From Bacillota bacterium (GTDB lineage: Bacteria > Bacillota > SHA-98 > UBA4971), in NCBI GenBank assembly GCA_030024085.1, contig JASEJE010000010.1:1-64000 (forward strand): 64,000 nt of DNA, read 5' to 3'. Shown here piece by piece: positions 10,102-24,905 of this stretch (position 1 is the stretch's first letter; the number at the start of each line of letters is the position of its first letter). Made by a program: the position numbers and the translations under genes. The notes below the pieces were generated by a model. The model did no database searches. It was given only the letters and a program-made list of their open reading frames with translations, and had not been told where the DNA came from.

Positions 10102-10292
10102 TTCGGTTAACTACCTCCTTCATACCAATTGATACAGCGGGCCAGTTGATCGTCAGCGCTGACGCGAAAACATCCTGAGTGACTGCCTCCTGCACGACGT
10201 TTGATGCCGAGCATGATTATCGCACTGCACCCGACTCTTCGGACACGACCCCGAGTCCACGTTCGACGTCGGTTGGTCTGACTCCTCTCGGC

Positions 10293-10579
10293 TTGACGTA
10301 CATCACGGGTTCCTCCTGAGCCGTTCCCTGAGTCATCATTGAGAGCGGTCCACTGATGTACATCACTGCTCCCGCTTCGACGGGCGACGTACAGAGCACT
10401 TCACGGAGGACCCGTGACGTGGGGAACGGGTCAAGCGGCAATGGTGACGTACATCACCGGTCGGGGGCGAAAACGCGACCTACGGGACGGTCCGTGGAGG
10501 CTTCGCGACGGAGGGAACGGATGAAGCGGTGGTGATGACGTACGTCACCGATCAGCCACGAATGCGTGACGAACGGGAC
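10293..10579. repeat. Phased palindromic repeat array 1 (10 motifs, 30/30/31-bp steps)
   Basis: Ten 14-bp motifs begin at 10293, 10323, 10353, 10384, 10414, 10444, 10475, 10505, 10535 and 10566, so the steps are 30,30,31 repeated three times. Each motif is two 5-bp half-sites around 4 bp; the best are GTGACGTACATCAC (10444) and ATGACGTACGTCAC (10535). From 10414 some right half-sites change from GTCAC type to GGAAC/GGGAC type while the phase is kept. The array lies between the flavodoxin gene and the promoter of the AbrB-type gene. No ORF explains it, since 91 bp is not a multiple of three. Confidence 0.85.
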
Positions 10580-10628
10580 TTCGGGGAGTTCGGGAACCGA
10601 CGACAGGCTCCGGCTCTGGGACCGGCTC

Positions 10629-10702: not shown

Positions 10703-10760
10703 GCGAGGGAAAGCGCGAGGGAAAGCGCGAGGGAAAGCGCGAGGGAAAGCGCGAGGGAAG
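10703..10760 (+). repeat. 12-bp tandem repeat
   Basis: The unit GCGCGAGGGAAA is repeated about five times in the untranslated region between the promoter and the AbrB-type start codon. Copy-number change would alter the 5' leader and the spacing to the ribosome site. Confidence 0.85.
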
Positions 10761-10770
10761 GCGGTAGATC

Positions 10771-11082
10771 ATGACCGGACATGAACCGATTTTCTATGGG
10801 GCTGTAACGGTAGGCGAGCGCGGTCAGGTGGTCATCCCCCAACAGGCCAGGGAAGCTCAGGGGATCAAGCCCGGCGACAAGATGTTGGTGCTGGGCGGAG
10901 GCTTTGGCGGCCATGGCCTGGTGATGATCAAGGCCGAGGCGGTCAGCGGTCTGCTGGCGAGGCTGAGCGAGCGCGTGAGTGCGCTCGAGAAGGTGTTTCG
11001 AATGTCTGCGGAGCACAAGGAGCAGGAGCAGAAACGGGACCCTGATGGGGACGGGGACCAGGACCGGGGCCAGGGCAGGTAG
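10771..11082 (+). CDS. AbrB/SpoVT/MazE-type transcriptional regulator
   Basis: A 103-residue DNA-binding protein. Residues 8-50 match the swapped-hairpin AbrB fold (VTVGERGQVVIPQQAREAQG, IKPGDKMLVL), followed by a short helix (LLARLSERVSALEKVF) and a low-complexity Asp/Gln/Gly tail. Such proteins bind DNA as dimers. It precedes the two ABC exporter genes on the same strand, so it probably regulates them and itself through the palindrome at 10662. The ribosome site is weak (GGAAGGCGG). Confidence 0.85.
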   Translation: MTGHEPIFYGAVTVGERGQVVIPQQAREAQGIKPGDKMLVLGGGFGGHGLVMIKAEAVSGLLARLSERVSALEKVFRMSAEHKEQEQKRDPDGDGDQDRGQGR

Positions 11083-11159
11083 CAGGGGCAGGGCCGGGGC
11101 CGGGAGCCGGGGCAACATGAGTGAGCCTCGGTCTCGCCGTCAGCGCCGGGGTCAGCGCC

Positions 11160-11275
11160 AGCCCTGACGTTAGCGTTGCCATCAGCAATGGCGCCAGCGT
11201 CGGCATTGGCGTCAGCGTCAGCATCAGCATCAGCATCAGGATCAAGATCAGCATCAGCATCAGCATGGACAGTGG
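11160..11275 (+). repeat. Hexameric microsatellite (AGCGTC/AGCATC)
   Basis: Imperfect copies of AGCRTC run through the gap between the regulator and the exporter (for example AGCATCAGCATCAGCATC). The rest of this 310-bp gap shows no gene and no clear promoter. Confidence 0.7.
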
Positions 11276-11392
11276 ACAGCGGCATCGACAACAGATTGGC
11301 AGCGGGGTCGCCGAGCGGGGTCTGCGGCACGGCCGGTGGGAGGGTCGGCGGCGAGGCATGGAAAATGACGCCGGGGAGAGGCACGGTGGACT

Positions 11393-13285
11393 ATGGTCAA
11401 GTTGTTCAGATTCCTTAAACCGTATCGAGTCCAGATCGCGTTCGTCGTAGGTCTCGTATTCCTTCAAACGCTCTCTGAGCTATACCTCCCGACATTGATG
11501 TCGGATATCGTCAATACCGGGATTATGAGGAGCGACGTGGACTACATCTGGAAGGTCGGCCGGCTGATGCTGCTGGTCGCCCTGGGTGGGACAACGTGCT
11601 CAATCGCGGCGGCCTTCTTGTCTGCAAGGACAGCCATGGGCTTTGGCAAGGCATTGCGCGCCAGGATTTTCGCCCACGTGGAGAAGTTCTCGTTGCACGA
11701 GTTCGACAAGATCGGTACCCCCTCCCTCATCACCAGGAACACCAACGATGTAACTCAGGTCCAGATGGTCACAATGGTCATGATGCGGATGATGATCAGT
11801 GCGCCCATCATGTGCATCGGCGGCATCATCATGGCCCTGTCGAAGGATAGGGGTCTGGCCTGGGTTCTGGCTGTTGTGTTGCCTGTCCTTGCGGTCATAG
11901 TCGCCTTCGTCGCCAACAGGGGGCTGCCGCTTTTCAGAACCATTCAGGAGAAGATCGACCGGATAAACCTGATCGTCCGCGAGAACCTCGAGGGAATCAG
12001 GGTTATCCGGGCCTTCAACCGCACCGACTACGAGAGGAAGCGTTTTCACGACGCGAACCTCGACCTGACCGAAACCTCTGTCAGGGTCAACAGGCTGATG
12101 GCCCTCCTGATGCCGGTGATGATGCTGATCATGAATTCCACTACAGTCGCCATCATCTGGTTCGGAGCCGTCCGCATCGACCGCGGGACCCTGGAGATCG
12201 GCAACATGATGGCGTTCTTCCAGTATTCCATGCAGATCATGATGTCCCTCCTCATGGCCTCGATGCTGTTTGTCATGATTCCCCGTGCTCAGGCTTCGGC
12301 GGACAGGATTAACGAGGTGCTTGCCGTCGAGCCGGAGATCAACGATCCGGAGATGCCTCGTCACGAGACATCTGATCCGGCGGCTACCGATCCGGCGATG
12401 GCAGAGAGCGAGAGCGAGAGCGAGAGCGAGGGCAAGATCAACACGAAGAGCGATGGCGAGCGCGGGAGCGAGAGTGAGAGCAGGAGCGGGAGCGGGAGCG
12501 GGGGCAGAAGCATCAGCACGGGCCTCGGCGCAGACGGCGAGAAGGGCCATGTTGAGTTTCGCGATGTGACTTTCAGGTACCATGGTGCGGAAGAACCCGC
12601 GCTCAGGGATGTGTCGTTCTGCGCCTGTCCGGGCGAGGTGGTCGCCATAATTGGTGGCACAGGCTCGGGTAAGTCGACGCTGGTGAGCCTGATCCCGCGC
12701 TTCTACGATGTCGGCGACGGCTGCGTCCTGGTGGATGGGGTGGACGTCCGGGAGATGACCCAGGAGCAATTGAGGGCGAAGATCGGCTTCGTGCCCCAGA
12801 AGGCCGTGCTCTTCTCCGGCACGGTTGCCGACAACATCAGGTACGGCAAGGAAGATGCGACTGACGACGAAATCAGGCGTGCCGCGGAGATCGCTCAGGC
12901 CCTGGATTTCATCTCCGAGATGAAAGATGGATTCGACTCTGAGATTGCGCAGGGTGGGACCAACGTCTCGGGCGGGCAGAGGCAGCGCCTTGCCATCGCC
13001 CGCGCGCTGGTCAGGAGGCCCGAGATTTACGTCTTCGATGACAGTTTCTCCGCCCTTGACTTCAAGACCGACGCCAGGCTGCGCGCAGCGTTGAAGAAGG
13101 AGACGGCCGGCGCCACGGTGCTAATCGTGGCCCAGAGAGTCAGCACGGTCATGAGCGCAGATCGGATAGTGGTCCTAGATCAAGGCAGGGTCGTCGGCAT
13201 CGGCACTCATAGAGACCTCCTGAAAACCTGCGAGGTCTACCGTGAGATCGTTTCCTCGCAGCTTCCCGAGGAGGAGATCGCATGA
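11393..13285 (+). CDS. ABC exporter half-transporter with degenerate catalytic site (TM287-like)
   Basis: A 630-residue type IV ABC exporter subunit: six membrane segments in residues 1-310, then an ATPase domain from about 385. Walker A GGTGSGKST starts at 421 and the signature VSGGQRQR at 525. Walker B is VFDD with D550 where catalytic glutamate is normal, as in the degenerate-site subunit of heterodimeric exporters such as TM287/288. An unusual low-complexity Ser/Glu/Gly linker (about residues 335-380) joins the domains and is encoded by a GAGAGC-type microsatellite. The canonical partner gene follows. Substrate unknown; drug or lipid export is typical. Confidence 0.9.
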   Translation: MVKLFRFLKPYRVQIAFVVGLVFLQTLSELYLPTLMSDIVNTGIMRSDVDYIWKVGRLMLLVALGGTTCSIAAAFLSARTAMGFGKALRARIFAHVEKFSLHEFDKIGTPSLITRNTNDVTQVQMVTMVMMRMMISAPIMCIGGIIMALSKDRGLAWVLAVVLPVLAVIVAFVANRGLPLFRTIQEKIDRINLIVRENLEGIRVIRAFNRTDYERKRFHDANLDLTETSVRVNRLMALLMPVMMLIMNSTTVAIIWFGAVRIDRGTLEIGNMMAFFQYSMQIMMSLLMASMLFVMIPRAQASADRINEVLAVEPEINDPEMPRHETSDPAATDPAMAESESESESEGKINTKSDGERGSESESRSGSGSGGRSISTGLGADGEKGHVEFRDVTFRYHGAEEPALRDVSFCACPGEVVAIIGGTGSGKSTLVSLIPRFYDVGDGCVLVDGVDVREMTQEQLRAKIGFVPQKAVLFSGTVADNIRYGKEDATDDEIRRAAEIAQALDFISEMKDGFDSEIAQGGTNVSGGQRQRLAIARALVRRPEIYVFDDSFSALDFKTDARLRAALKKETAGATVLIVAQRVSTVMSADRIVVLDQGRVVGIGTHRDLLKTCEVYREIVSSQLPEEEIA

Positions 13286-13379
13286 GGGAGGGCAACACAG
13301 GCCGCACAAGCCACACAATCCTCACCGGCTGTTCGGGCCGCGTCCGGTCCCGCCTGGCCGTGCAGGCTGGAGAGATCAT

Positions 13380-13498
13380 ATGAGCAAGGACAGCGTGAGC
13401 AGAGATAGCATGAGCGGAGATAGCGAGGGATAGCGTGAGCAGGGATATTATGAGCAGAGACAGCGTGAGCAGAGATGGCGTAAGCAGGGATCGCATGA
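13380..13498 (+). repeat. 15-bp tandem repeat at the 5' end of the second exporter gene
   Basis: About eight imperfect copies of a 15-bp unit (AGCAGAGATAGCGTG) encode repeated MSRD/VSRD. Reading from ATG 13380, the tract hits TAG at 13431 after 17 codons. The exporter frame begins in a different frame at GTG 13435 within the same tract. An indel in the tract has therefore separated an upstream start from the gene. Confidence 0.8.
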
Positions 13499-15405
13499 GC
13501 GGGGGCCCTCTGGCACAGCAACGGCCGGCCGGCCCGGCGCTGCCTGGCGGCTTCAGACCCGGCAGGGGAGGCTTCGGCGGCGGCGGGCACGGATTCGGCC
13601 GGCCGGTTGAAAAGGCCAGGGATTTCAAGGGTACGCTGAAAAGGCTGGCGATCTACCTCAAGCCCATGTGGCCGCGGTTGGCAGTCGTGGTTCTCGCCGC
13701 CGTCGCCAGCACTGCGCTCGGCGTCATCAGCCCCAAGGTCATGGGGAAGGCCATCACCAACCTGGGGCGGACATTCGGGATGAGGCTCATAGGCCTCCCC
13801 GCCGGCGTGGATTTTCGATACATCGGGCATATCGTCCTGTGGCTCGCCGGGCTCTACATCGCAAGCTCGCTCTTCAACTATGTGATGCAGTACACCATGG
13901 CGGGCGTGGCTCAGAAGACCGTCTTCGCCATGCGCCGGGACATGAACGACAAACTCGCCCGCCTGCCGCTAAGGTTCTTTGACGGACGCACGCACGGCGA
14001 GATCATGAGCCGGATGACCAACGACATCGACAACATCAGCATGACATTGCAGCAGAGCCTGGGACAGCTTATCACTTCGTTTGTCGGCATCATCGGCGCC
14101 ATCATCATGATGTTCACCATCAGTTGGCTATTGACGCTGATCTGCCTTCTGACATTGCCGCTTTCATTCTTCGTGACGGCCACGATCGCGAGACTCTCCC
14201 AGAGAAACTTCGCGGCGCAGCAGATGGAGCTCGGTCTACTCAACGGCCACGTGGAGGAGATGTATACCGGCCACAAGATAGTCAAGGCCTTTGGTCACGA
14301 GGGCAAGGCCATTGATCAATTCAGCCAGATCAACGAACGACTTTATAACGCGGCCTGGCGGGCACAATTCATCTCCGGTATCATCTTCCCGCTGATGAAT
14401 TTCATGAACAACATCGGGTACGTGCTCATCTGCGTCATCGGCGGGATCATGGTCACCAAGCGAAGGATTGAACTCGGCGACATCACGGCATTCATCCAGT
14501 ACCAGAGGATGTTCACCATGCCCATAGCACAGACGGCCAATATCGTGAACATCCTCCAGTCCACGGTGGCTTCCGCCGAGCGTGTATTTGAGTTGCTGGA
14601 CGAACCGGAGGAGATTCCCGACACCGCCGCTGCCGCAACCATTGCGTCACCGCGAGGTGAGGTCAAGTTCCAGAATGTCAGGTTCAGCTATAAGAAAGGC
14701 GTCCCATTGATCGAGAACCTCAACATGCAGGTTAGGCCGGGACAGACAATCGCCATCGTGGGCCCGACCGGCGCCGGCAAGACCACCCTCGTCAACCTGC
14801 TCATGCGTTTCTACGAGATAGACGGAGGCAGTATCACCATCGACGGCGTCGACATCAGGGATTTGAAGCGCGGAGAGCTGCGCAGGCTCTTCGGCATGGT
14901 GCTGCAGGATACCTGGCTCTTCAACGGCACCATCCGGGACAATATCGCCTACGGCCGCGAAGGCGCCACTGACGAGGAGATCGTGCGGGCCGCCAGGGCT
15001 GCGCAGGCCGACCACTTCATCAGGGCTCTCCCCGATGGCTACAACACCATTTTGAATGAAGAGGCCTCCAACATCTCCCAGGGCGAGAGGCAGCTGCTGA
15101 CCATCGCGCGGGCATTCCTGGCTGATCCGGCTATTCTCATTCTCGACGAAGCGACCAGTAGCGTCGACACGAGGACTGAGATCTACATCCAAAAGGCCAT
15201 GGCAGAACTGATGAAAGGCCGGACGAGTTTCGTCATCGCCCACCGGCTCTCCACAATTCGAAACGCGGAATCGATCCTGGTGATGAATAACGGCAGCATC
15301 ATCGAGACCGGCACCCACGGGCAATTGCTCGCCAAGGGCAGCCTCTACGCCGATCTTTACAATAGCCAGTTTGCCAAGGCCCATGTTGACGACCAGGCGG
15401 TCTGA
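13435..15405 (+). CDS. ABC exporter half-transporter with canonical catalytic site (TM288-like)
   Basis: A 656-residue partner of the preceding exporter subunit. An N-terminal repetitive MSRD tract and a Gly/Arg-rich region (GRGGFGGGGHGFGRP) come before six membrane segments. The ATPase domain has Walker A GPTGAGKTT at 443-451, signature ISQGERQ at 547-553 and Walker B ILILDE with catalytic E572. One intact and one degenerate site imply a heterodimer. The start is uncertain: GTG 13435 or an internal ATG such as 13495 (MSGGPLAQ). It begins about 150 nt after the partner's stop. Confidence 0.9.
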   Translation: MSRDIMSRDSVSRDGVSRDRMSGGPLAQQRPAGPALPGGFRPGRGGFGGGGHGFGRPVEKARDFKGTLKRLAIYLKPMWPRLAVVVLAAVASTALGVISPKVMGKAITNLGRTFGMRLIGLPAGVDFRYIGHIVLWLAGLYIASSLFNYVMQYTMAGVAQKTVFAMRRDMNDKLARLPLRFFDGRTHGEIMSRMTNDIDNISMTLQQSLGQLITSFVGIIGAIIMMFTISWLLTLICLLTLPLSFFVTATIARLSQRNFAAQQMELGLLNGHVEEMYTGHKIVKAFGHEGKAIDQFSQINERLYNAAWRAQFISGIIFPLMNFMNNIGYVLICVIGGIMVTKRRIELGDITAFIQYQRMFTMPIAQTANIVNILQSTVASAERVFELLDEPEEIPDTAAAATIASPRGEVKFQNVRFSYKKGVPLIENLNMQVRPGQTIAIVGPTGAGKTTLVNLLMRFYEIDGGSITIDGVDIRDLKRGELRRLFGMVLQDTWLFNGTIRDNIAYGREGATDEEIVRAARAAQADHFIRALPDGYNTILNEEASNISQGERQLLTIARAFLADPAILILDEATSSVDTRTEIYIQKAMAELMKGRTSFVIAHRLSTIRNAESILVMNNGSIIETGTHGQLLAKGSLYADLYNSQFAKAHVDDQAV

Positions 15406-21704: not shown

Positions 21705-21733
21705 GTCCTAAAGGCAGGAAGCCGGTTCCTGCC
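21705..21733 (-). terminator. Terminator of the shikimate operon overlapping the aroQ stop
   Basis: On the minus strand GGCAGGAA and TTCCTGCC pair across a 5-nt loop, followed by TTTAGG. The stem overlaps the last codons of aroQ, whose TAG is at 21710-21708. The T-run is short but the position fits the operon end. Confidence 0.6.
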
Positions 21734-22169
21734 TTGGTAGAGCGGCGAGGGCTCGAAGCGCCAGGGCGTAACCGAGAGGGCCGAGGCCCGAGATCTGTCC
21801 GCGCGCCACGGGGGCGATCACCGAGTGGCGGCGGAACTCCTCGCGGGCGTAGATGTTTGAGAGATGGACTTCGATGGTTGGGAGCCCGCTGCCGCCGACG
21901 GCGTCGCGGATGGCGATGCTGTAATGGGTGTACGCTGCAGGATTGATGACGAGGCCGTCGCAGCGGTCCGCGGCGTCCCATATGAGGCTCACGATCTCGC
22001 CCTCGTGGTTCGTCTGGTGGATCTCGACCGTCACGCCGAGGGCCCGGGCTTCCTGTTCGATGAGAGCGTTGATGCTGTCAAGGGTTTGAGACCCATAGAT
22101 ACCTGGCTCCCGCACGCCCAACCGGTCCAGGTTCGGGCCATGAATTACCATGATAGTAGTGTCCGCCAT
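21708..22169 (-). CDS. aroQ: 3-dehydroquinate dehydratase, type II
   Basis: A 153-residue cytosolic enzyme that removes water from 3-dehydroquinate to give 3-dehydroshikimate. Type II hallmarks are GPNLDRLGVREPGIYG with catalytic Tyr25, INPAAYTHYSIAIRDA, and EVHLSNIYAREEFR with the catalytic His and Arg. ATG 22169 is preferred because AGGAGGGG lies just upstream; a longer frame adds 11 residues. It is the last gene of the minus-strand aro cluster, separated from aroKB by a 760-bp repeat-filled gap, so it may also have its own promoter. Confidence 0.93.
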   Translation of the reverse strand: MADTTIMVIHGPNLDRLGVREPGIYGSQTLDSINALIEQEARALGVTVEIHQTNHEGEIVSLIWDAADRCDGLVINPAAYTHYSIAIRDAVGGSGLPTIEVHLSNIYAREEFRRHSVIAPVARGQISGLGPLGYALALRALAALPRQEPASCL

Positions 22170-22250
22170 GTTTTCCCCTCCTGTCTCGTGGGCATCTTCC
22201 AAAGGTGCTCATCTCGGTATCACGCTTGCACACATCGCGGTCGTCTAAGC

Positions 22251-22300
22251 CAGGGTGCGTTAGTTCTTGTCTGTTTGCCAGCAGTTGCCGGAAGCGTTCG
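22251..22300 (+). repeat. Dispersed repeat, copy 3 (5' part)
   Basis: CAGGGTGCGTTAGTTCTTG, then CAGCAGTTGCCGG, match the 5' part of the copies at 27188 and 57279. The copy runs directly into the first motif of the phased array at 22296. Confidence 0.65.
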
Positions 22301-22794
22301 CCACGTCACTATTAGCGGCTATCGGGCGACGCACATCACTGGTCACGGCCCTACCCGTTCCCAACGTCACATGTGCCAGGGGACGCGTGACGTGCGTCAC
22401 TCGTTAGGCTCTTCCCGTTCAGTACGTCACGGATCAGGACCCGATCCGTGAGGTACGTCATCGTTCCCGCCTTACCCGTTCCCTCCGTCGCACGTTCCTC
22501 ATGAAGAGTTCCATACGTCACCCATTCGCGCCTGATCCGTGACGAGCGTCATTACTGCCGCCGTATTCGTTCCCTGCGTCACGGATCCCCCACGAAGTGT
22601 TCCATACGTCACTCGTCGAAACTGGACAGGGGACGGACGTCACGGGTCCTTCCGCAACCGTTCCGCACATCCCGCTTGAGAGCCGTCCACTGACGTACAT
22701 CACCGGTCCGGTCCTGACCCGTTCCCCGTGTCACGCATGCAAGGGGACCGGTGCTACGCGTCACTCTTTCCGCCCCACCCGTTCCGTACATCAC
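22296..22794. repeat. Phased palindromic repeat array 2 (17 motifs, 30/30/31-bp steps)
   Basis: Seventeen 14-bp motifs start at 22296, 22326, 22357, 22387, 22417, 22448, 22478, 22508, 22539, 22569, 22599, 22630, 22660, 22690, 22721, 22751 and 22781. Every third start is exactly 91 bp apart. The motif forms are GTTCCATACGTCAC and GTGACGTGCGTCAC, two half-sites around 4 bp. Motif groups at 22448-22521 and 22539-22612 are clearly related 91-bp duplicates. It fills the gap between aroQ and aroKB and is the same family as the array at 10293-10579. Confidence 0.88.
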
Positions 22795-22928
22795 GGGTCT
22801 TCCGGGAACGGTTTTCCGGGAACCGCGAGGTCAACTCTAGGGCCATCGGGGCCGGGGGTCGCCCTCCTAGACAAGCCCGCCAGGCCCACGAGGCCGCGCC
22901 GCGGCACTTCGTGTCTGGGAAAGTGGCA

Positions 22929-24905
22929 TTAGTTAGTGGCCAGATCGCCCTGAGGGCCAGCGAGGGCGATCCCGCTGGGACCAGCCCGCGCGATCTGGCC
23001 AGGCATGACTATCTCCTCCGCCAGTGCTTCCGCGGCCGGATCCTCGCAGACGGAGCATCTTCCTATGGAGAGCGGCAGCACGACGCGAAGCTTGCCCCCA
23101 CGGGCTTTCTTGTCAAGGGCCATAGCGGCCAGGATGGATTTGCGGAGGGCGTCACCGTCCGTGAGTGGGACCGACGTTGGCAACCCAAGGCCTGCGAGCA
23201 GTCGGATCACCCGCGCCGAGGCGTCCTCCTGAAGGTAGCCCAGGCGCGCGGATGCGCGACAAGCTGCGGCAAGACCTATCGCCACGGCTTCTCCGTGGGT
23301 CCAGCGCCGAAAGCCGCCAGCCCGCTCGATGGCGTGGCCGAGCGTGTGGCCGAGGTTGAGGAGCAGGCGGTCTCCCGTGTCGCGCTCGTCCGTGGCCACG
23401 ATCTTGGCCTTAACCATGACCGCCCTGCGGACGATGTCCTGCCACAAGGCAGGTTCCTGCTGGAGGGTCCGGGCTGCGGCGAACCTGGCGGCGCGCGGAC
23501 GCCGGAGGCCGGCGGTGCGGCACCCATCGGTCGAACGGGTGTCGGCGCCGCCCGCTACCCGGGCCACGTGCTCCAGGGTTTCGAAGAGATCTGGGTCCCC
23601 GATGACCGCGGCCTTGACTACTTCTGCGAGCCCGCTCGTGAGATCGCGCAGTGGCAACGTCCCCAGAGTGGTGATGTCTGCTATCACGGCCGCGGGCTGC
23701 CAGAACGTGCCGGCGAGGTTCTTGGCGGCCCGGAGGTTGATCGCGGTCTTCCCGCCGACGGCGCTGTCCACCATTGCCAGCAGCGTGGTGGGCACGTGGA
23801 CCAGCCTGACCCCGCGCATGTATGTGGCGGCGAAGAACCCCGCCACGTCGCCGACGGTGCCGCCTCCAAGGGCGATCACCAGCGAGTCGCGGCCGGCGCC
23901 GGAGGCCGCGGCGAGGTCGTACAGCTTCGCCAGGGTCGCAAGGCTTTTCGCTCTCTCGCCCTCGGCGACCATGGCCCACGCGATGGGCGGGGCGCAGCCA
24001 AGCCAGCTGCGAAGGCCTTCTTCGAGTCGCCCGCCGAAGAGCGACCGGAGCAGGGGGGTGGTGACCACGATGATCCTGCCGGGAGGCCGCCCGCCGTCGG
24101 GGCTTCGATGGCCAAGGGCCGTGTCGTACGTGCCTGGACGGGGGAGGAGGCCGCAGCCAGCGAGGTACGGGTACACTGCGGTTCCCGCGGTGATCTCGAG
24201 CAGGTACGGTTCACCGCGATCCGGCTGCGCTTCGTCCCGATGCTCGCACACACCGCGTGAACTCCGAACCGGGACAGCCTGCTCTCCGGCCGTACCACAG
24301 GTTTCCGAACCGTCCGCGAGGGGCGGGCACGCCGCCGTCCACGCGATCTTGCGGACTATCTCGCGGGCGATGTCCTCGGGGCGTTTGCCGTCGGTATCGA
24401 TGGCGACGTGCGCTTGCCGGTATCCTTGCTCCCGCGCGCTCATCAGGGAACGTACCTGCTCTATGTCGGCCTTTCCTTGGAGCACCGGCCTTGAATCCAT
24501 CCCAGGCGCGTGTTCGGAGGAGCCGTCTTCGGAGCTGTCCGGCCGCGGCCGCAGGCGGGCGAGGACGCTCTCAGGGGACGCGCGCAGCCATACGAGAAGG
24601 CCCGCGCGCTTCAGGGCCTTGACGTTTCGCTGGTCCATGAGCGCTCCGCCGCCCACGGAGATGACGGTGCTGTTGAGCCTCGAGGCCTGCCTCACCGCGC
24701 GGGCTTCCAGGCGTCTGAACCAGGCTTCCCCGCGCGTCCGGAAGATCTCGCTGATAGTGGCGCCTGCCTCTGATTCGATGAGGGCGTCGGTATCGAGAAA
24801 CGCCATCCCGAGCAGCGCGGCAAGGCACCCGCCGACGGAGGACTTGCCCGCCCCCATGAAGCCCGTCAGTATGATGTTGGTAGCTGTAGTCGGTACGGCC
24901 GTCAT
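22929..24905 (-). CDS. aroKB: Shikimate kinase / 3-dehydroquinate synthase fusion
   Basis: A 658-residue bifunctional enzyme. The N-terminal shikimate kinase (about 1-195) has Walker A GFMGAGKS at 15-22, DTDALIE, FRRLEARAV and VISVGGGA. The 3-dehydroquinate synthase part (about 250-620) has GGGTVGDVAGFFAATYMRG, VPTTLLAMVDSAVGGKTAIN and LLNLGHTLGHAIE for NAD, substrate and metal binding. A linker rich in Cys, Ser and Glu joins them, and a variable insert lies inside each half. It catalyses steps 2 and 5 of the pathway. ATG 24905 has GAGGGAGA upstream. Confidence 0.93.
   Translation of the reverse strand: MTAVPTTATNIILTGFMGAGKSSVGGCLAALLGMAFLDTDALIESEAGATISEIFRTRGEAWFRRLEARAVRQASRLNSTVISVGGGALMDQRNVKALKRAGLLVWLRASPESVLARLRPRPDSSEDGSSEHAPGMDSRPVLQGKADIEQVRSLMSAREQGYRQAHVAIDTDGKRPEDIAREIVRKIAWTAACPPLADGSETCGTAGEQAVPVRSSRGVCEHRDEAQPDRGEPYLLEITAGTAVYPYLAGCGLLPRPGTYDTALGHRSPDGGRPPGRIIVVTTPLLRSLFGGRLEEGLRSWLGCAPPIAWAMVAEGERAKSLATLAKLYDLAAASGAGRDSLVIALGGGTVGDVAGFFAATYMRGVRLVHVPTTLLAMVDSAVGGKTAINLRAAKNLAGTFWQPAAVIADITTLGTLPLRDLTSGLAEVVKAAVIGDPDLFETLEHVARVAGGADTRSTDGCRTAGLRRPRAARFAAARTLQQEPALWQDIVRRAVMVKAKIVATDERDTGDRLLLNLGHTLGHAIERAGGFRRWTHGEAVAIGLAAACRASARLGYLQEDASARVIRLLAGLGLPTSVPLTDGDALRKSILAAMALDKKARGGKLRVVLPLSIGRCSVCEDPAAEALAEEIVMPGQIARAGPSGIALAGPQGDLATN

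Follow-up and report, generated by a model that had tools for sequence, protein, structure and literature searches.

A geometry-locked array of predicted DNA-binding sites within a dispersed MITE-like element of a Bacillota genome

Between two genes of the shikimate pathway in a Bacillota bacterium (GenBank assembly GCA_030024085.1, contig JASEJE010000010.1) lies a noncoding stretch in which short motifs recur at even steps. The locus raises the question of what such an array is and what keeps it regular. Positions 1 to 64,000 of the contig (forward strand) were analysed, hereafter called the window. The array was found where a preliminary description of this DNA had placed it, between aroKB and aroQ:

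21708..22202, minus strand: aroQ, type II 3-dehydroquinase, neighbour
22281..22795, plus strand: array, 17 units of 30/30/31 bp with two alternating 12-13-bp site types per 60.7 bp
22929..24905, minus strand: aroKB fusion, shikimate kinase plus 3-dehydroquinate synthase, neighbour

The steps between unit starts ran 30, 31, 30, 30, 31, 30 and so on across all 17 units with zero exceptions. With a comb of 30/30/31 spacing, TCA occupied 15 of the 17 slots in the array, versus a maximum of 4 in 1000 shuffles, and the best comb outside the array in the same 64-kb window reached 5 TCA. Given this score and the exception-free steps, the observation of a 17-motif noncoding array is sound. The autocorrelation proposed as a check showed maxima at lags 91, 182, 273, 303 and 61. 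Inspection of the consensus also upheld the statement that the array is not coding, as the frame shifts each 91 bp and TGA recurs in every frame. A CRISPR array was likewise ruled out, because the units are degenerate (38% alike after shifting by one unit) and the sequence between the cores, far from forming unique spacers, is common to about 41 loci.

The array is not confined to this locus but belongs to a dispersed family. When 22280-22830 was searched against the genome it comes from, 109 matching stretches were returned, which fell into 40 loci. Meanwhile, a core-motif search of the genome gave 219 matches (a reversed control pattern gave 0) and added one locus, which also lies in the window:

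about 10290..10600, strand not assigned: second array of the family, decayed and internally inverted

This second array, whose two halves face opposite ways, has a flavodoxin-like gene on one side and a small AbrB-like ORF on the other. All of the approximately 41 array loci are apparently intergenic, about one per 75 kb. ORFs called over some of the arrays are weak, and the arrays have no consistent orientation to neighbouring genes. As a separate observation, positions 10703-13500 of the window hold a cluster of 6-, 12-, 15- and 24-bp tandem repeats, some of them within an ABC-transporter ORF (11393-13285), where they encode a Ser/Glu-rich insert.

Most copies contain exactly 15 units, which amounts to 455 bp (5 x 91 bp), and others contain 12, 18 or 21; length thus usually changes by 91 bp or its multiples. 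Identity between copies was 80% in register, 51% with an offset of 91 bp and 70% with one of 273 bp, while the 91-bp rows within one copy were only 50% alike. It follows that the array has an old origin and an internally degenerate periodicity, and that its copies across the genome stem from a single ancestral array. One recent 91-bp duplication, named in the preliminary description as an explanation that would refute it, does not agree with rows so dissimilar within a copy and copies so similar in register.

Alignment of the flanks revealed what is copied. In its commonest form the element measures 609 bp end to end and comprises inverted ends, a short leader, 15 units and a tail. Terminal inverted repeats (TIRs) of the form NTAR-TACTRCTCTGTYA occur at both ends; the left end reads NTAR-TACTRCTCTGTYACRTATGGAG and the right end ...CATTTCGTATCTGACARAGYAGTA-YTAR. 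The element is short, multi-copy and dispersed, it is bounded by terminal inverted repeats, and it has no internal transposase gene. By anatomy, it is MITE-like. Exact 4-bp NTAR duplications flank 8 of about 19 elements, which is suggestive of target-site duplication, the NTAR motif itself being partly fixed.

The copy between aroQ and aroKB is a worn member of this family that has lost its left end. Its remaining parts, and the sequence that replaced its left end and leader, are as follows:

22245..22291, strand not assigned: 47-bp fragment of an unrelated high-copy repeat (about 187 bp) with dozens of matches in genomes G001-G005
22796..22909, plus strand: element tail, a conserved non-array segment from the array to the right end, homologous to the tails of other copies
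22910..22932, minus strand: right TIR, degenerate, CTAATGCCACTTTCCCAGACACG on the minus strand versus CTARTACTRCTYTGTCAGATACG in the family, ending in TTAG

The outer TTA of this right TIR doubles as the stop codon of aroKB. The array came to interrupt the aro genes as the cargo of an inserted MITE-like mobile element with inverted ends, a status that the preliminary description had missed. The right end has an orthologous counterpart retained in the congener G003. At this spot in G003, both edges are kept and nearly the whole array is gone (594 bp reduced to about 30 bp), so that the G003 locus is a deletion remnant and was rejected as an empty site. The array is therefore dispensable, at least at the aro locus. 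In G004, only about 50 bp separate the aroQ start from the conserved aroKB end, and no element is present. The repeat that supplied the 47-bp fragment is a separate noncoding dispersed sequence of about 187 bp (L012:3777-3964, GGTTGCCGGTG ... CACCGGCAACC). More than 100 matches to it are listed in G001-G005, most of them at 80-94% identity, and it has no Rfam match. Array elements are often located at its CACTTAG edge.

Has the element moved? An 18-unit version in species G004 is 92% identical to the copy on contig C5 yet lies in unrelated flanks, and thus the element has moved. Furthermore, array-less elements of about 119-153 bp carry the same inverted ends, and several are flanked by CTAG, CTAA or ATAG duplications; they are likely deletion or parent forms:

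L073:1501-1631, L085:1501-1619, L086:1501-1643 and L083:1389-1520: short array-less elements
L099/L103, L092 and L097: further loci of short array-less elements

Arrays of the sister species G002 are rearranged in two places, and one of them lost 273 bp. One G002 array, L047 (G002:C123), has one flank in common with the C22 locus and the other with the C1:83-kb locus of G000 (compared with L034 and L020), which suggests that copies have recombined or that the assembly joined two loci. A clean empty site was found neither at the window locus of G003 nor near C63 in G002 or C11 in G004, and mobility therefore rests on the TIRs, the dispersal and the unrelated flanks. A partner transposase with matching TIRs is usual for a MITE, although not always found. 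In this genome, a draft assembly, no gene for an IS630-type transposase (DDE_3) was present, and DDE_Tnp_1 matches in the genus, likewise in draft assemblies, had no surrounding ends matching the TIRs of the element (DDE_3 and DDE_Tnp_1 being the families searched). IS5/IS1182-type transposases of the genus were rejected as partners since their ends do not match. A frameshifted remnant of an IS1182-type transposase was observed at L185 (G000:C36) 107-1687; it merely adjoins a family TIR that is about 40 bp off and points the other way, and was not accepted as a partner either.

We then examined which parts of the element are kept, by counting changes against the column consensus in 35 aligned copies. 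The substitution profile has a 30-bp period, with changes in 2-6% at positions 17-19 and 26-28, in 6% at T3 and mostly in 15-30% elsewhere. Several of the variable positions nevertheless have the consensus base of a conserved one; T17 and T22, for example, changed in 3.7% and 28.5%, respectively. Core bases of intact copies are under strong purifying constraint. In 21 copies with recognisable TIRs, 36 of 2205 core positions (1.6%) differed versus 1062 of 5982 in the rest (17.7%), a ratio of 0.09 (p ~1e-108). The ratio was 0.38 in 10 copies whose ends are broken, much of the core constraint being lost. Mutual nearest pairs differed at 1.2% of core, 11.7% of remaining and 12.9% of tail positions. 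Conserved columns can show nothing but singletons, so that a singleton-substitution test carries no information, and a tree-based count was used instead. On a tree of 29 copies, terminal branches carried 0.60 changes per core site versus 2.67 per other site, and internal branches 0.06 versus 1.12. TIR columns of intact copies varied by 13-18% (about 10-12% without R/Y columns), that is, roughly seven times more than the array cores.

Spacing is constrained as well. We counted from the alignment about 4 small indels in 10 kb of array (~0.4/kb) versus 20 in 2.5 kb of tail (8/kb; p ~4e-11), a roughly 20-fold difference that is inflated by the slippage-prone GCC-rich runs of the tail. Orthologous arrays of G002 gave 0 of 22 differences at core positions, a weak test in that 15 of the 22 came from the array lacking 273 bp and may reflect paralogous pairing. 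In the recent pair L009/L045, core changes were not depleted (5 of 22).

The motifs had been described as two half-sites, the left one being a loose GTTCC/GTGAC. The left variants instead belong to two distinct site types, a (NTGA-N6-TCAC) and b (GTTC-N6-TCA), which follow the order abababab-b-ababab with one break at units 8-9. The base G16 changed in 0.6% of GTTC units versus 35% of TGA units, and C29 in 2.7% of TGA units versus 10% of GTTC units. Such type-specific profiles are what would be expected of two related but distinct protein-DNA contacts. The core of CRP/FNR-family operators is TGA-N6-TCA, and the TGA type shares this core and spacing. However, CRP/FNR operators require the symmetric TGA-N6-TCA at every site, whereas 8 of the 15 units have the form GTTC-N6-TCA and conserve that form, and TGA units leave G16 unconstrained; the CRP/FNR assignment was rejected. 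Arrays of 15 sites are not known for that family.

It had also been stated that all motifs lie on nearly the same DNA face. The pitch of 30.33 bp corresponds by arithmetic to 2.89 turns (10.5 bp/turn). The sites are therefore not all on one face; the face drifts by about -40 degrees per unit. Nine units (273 bp) make 26.0 turns and regain the face, and a protein might use this nine-unit helical return.

Taken as a whole, we put at about 0.6 the probability that this is a mobile MITE-like element (~609 bp) with a selected, geometry-locked lattice of predicted DNA-binding sites. An array bound by an oligomerising protein, as suggested from the start, is the best-supported functional reading of the putative sites, given the constraint on core bases and spacing. 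In this mechanism, the 15 (12-21) predicted sites at 30.33-bp pitch would be bound cooperatively along the DNA by a sequence-specific protein, which might be supplied by the host or by an autonomous element elsewhere, and the regular nucleoprotein lattice would be what selection preserves. It might serve the host, through local chromatin or by insulating the insertion, or else the element, as a transposition enhancer or recruitment platform. A role continuing after insertion is slightly favoured, because the TIRs have changed far more than the core sites.

A role in transposition only is the first alternative. The sites would then bind a transposase or an accessory factor and be kept by copying success, with neutral decay after insertion. 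This would explain why constraint is relaxed in copies that lack ends and, relative to internal branches, on terminal ones, and the recent pair L009/L045 without core depletion is consistent with it. Elements of the IS21/Tn7 type use several transposase-binding sites per end, and the array resembles such ends in having several regularly spaced putative protein sites within a mobile element; their sites are few and terminal, whereas the present array spreads 15 sites over the whole interior, and the TIR is separate. Against a pure enhancer, the short array-less elements with the same TIRs are also dispersed, TIRs vary about 7x more than cores, which is the opposite of selection for mobility alone, and orthologous intact arrays show no core change. 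We therefore regard this alternative as doubtful.

A passive minisatellite, that is, a functionless 30-bp repeat trapped in a MITE with its geometry inherited, was already disfavoured and appears quite unlikely. The geometry of the copies is indeed inherited by descent, a 273-bp internal duplication accounts for part of the periodicity, and MITEs with minisatellites are known (PMC4596501). A passive repeat, however, would not carry the position-specific constraint seen each 30 bp at T17 and T22, the constraint on spacing, or the conservation of G16 and C29 by site type.

Sites that organise the chromosome in the manner of matS or parS, distributed by a transposon and then recruited by the host, also seem distinctly improbable. 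The matS site GTGACRNYGTCAC, bound by MatP, has the same half-sites GTGAC and GTCAC (PMC6907758), and a density of one apparently intergenic array per 75 kb would suit such a role. However, matS and parS are single sites and not 15-site arrays, matS being 13 bp with a 3-bp centre; the array units, with a 4-bp centre, did not match GTGACRNYGTCAC and were rejected as matS sites. Half of the units are of the GTTC type, and close relatives have few or no copies.

Highly improbable, finally, is a set of transcribed hairpins or a structured noncoding RNA: single-sequence folding of the minus strand beats shuffles (z -5.7) and the consensus energy is better than that of column shuffles, as the inverted half-sites TGA/TCA can explain, but RNAalifold covariation was near zero on both strands, compensatory pairs were no commoner than in slid controls, the arrays lack a consistent orientation to neighbouring genes, Rfam contained no match to the array, and the TTC-type units are unable to pair with TCA, so that the two-type pattern is not that of RNA hairpins.

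The closest known kind to the element is the MITE with internal minisatellites, such as BrickBuilt and the pneumococcal BOX. BrickBuilt of Porphyromonas gingivalis is a MITE with leader, tail, TIRs and internal 23-nt repeats in about 19 intergenic copies (PMC4596501). Both elements are MITE-like and intergenic with leader, tail and TIRs, and both contain a short-repeat array with conserved and variable positions. Unlike the present 30/31-bp units and unrelated TIR, BrickBuilt has 23-nt repeats in variable number and GAGACC-type TIRs; a fixed 30/30/31 pitch and two alternating site types were not reported for it, and no shared sequence was recognised. BOX of Streptococcus pneumoniae is a mobile boxA-(boxB)n-boxC element that an IS with similar TIRs probably mobilises in trans (PMC3049150). 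It is likewise dispersed and has a tandem internal module. However, its boxB number varies widely, it is predicted to fold as RNA and it is transcribed in several cases, whereas the present element has a nearly constant number of units, and its folding as RNA is not supported. Compared with known MITEs with minisatellites, the nearly fixed length and pitch, the two alternating site types and the cores more conserved than the ends are new. No description of this element was found in the literature.

MITEs are usually regarded as decaying passengers. In this family the interior array is the best-conserved part, ahead of the ends, and its spacing is shielded against indels. If the lattice is read by a protein, the element would be a natural, ready-made tool for studying cooperative DNA coating and the selection of a regular site pitch, and a bacterium could gain dozens of similar protein platforms via transposition. 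It is also conceivable, though rather unlikely, that the transposable element seeds the chromosome with two-site lattices whose pitch is selected for a nucleoprotein superhelix, which would make it a mobile, self-spreading chromatin module.

The family has a narrow distribution. Other copies do occur in related genomes, where the preliminary description had proposed to look: arrays are present in 4 of 5 congeners, few and often decayed, and there is none in the fifth. Copy number within the genus drops from about 41 to few or none. A unique centromere-like site, an early suggestion, is not supported by about 41 copies, absence from one congener and deletion at the locus in another. No match was found in other genera among the 40 relatives searched, and the array pattern was not found in viral contigs. 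A four-unit pattern run over the genomes of 84,980 species recovered the genus (Bacillota MAGs UBA6811 and AS02xzSISU_21). Outside the genus, the same scan returned only an Actinophytocola repeat, which is unrelated and was rejected as a family member, and two arrays from rumen Clostridia that differ in sequence. The latter are noncoding and have a different 30-31-bp unit (TTTCAGGGTGTCAC; TCGTTTCAGGGTGTCACTTTTTTCGAGTAA) at L178:4689-4911 and at L180:1888-2080 and 2258-2480. Their half-sites and spacing are strikingly similar to those of the family, and they may be transposon-end site arrays.
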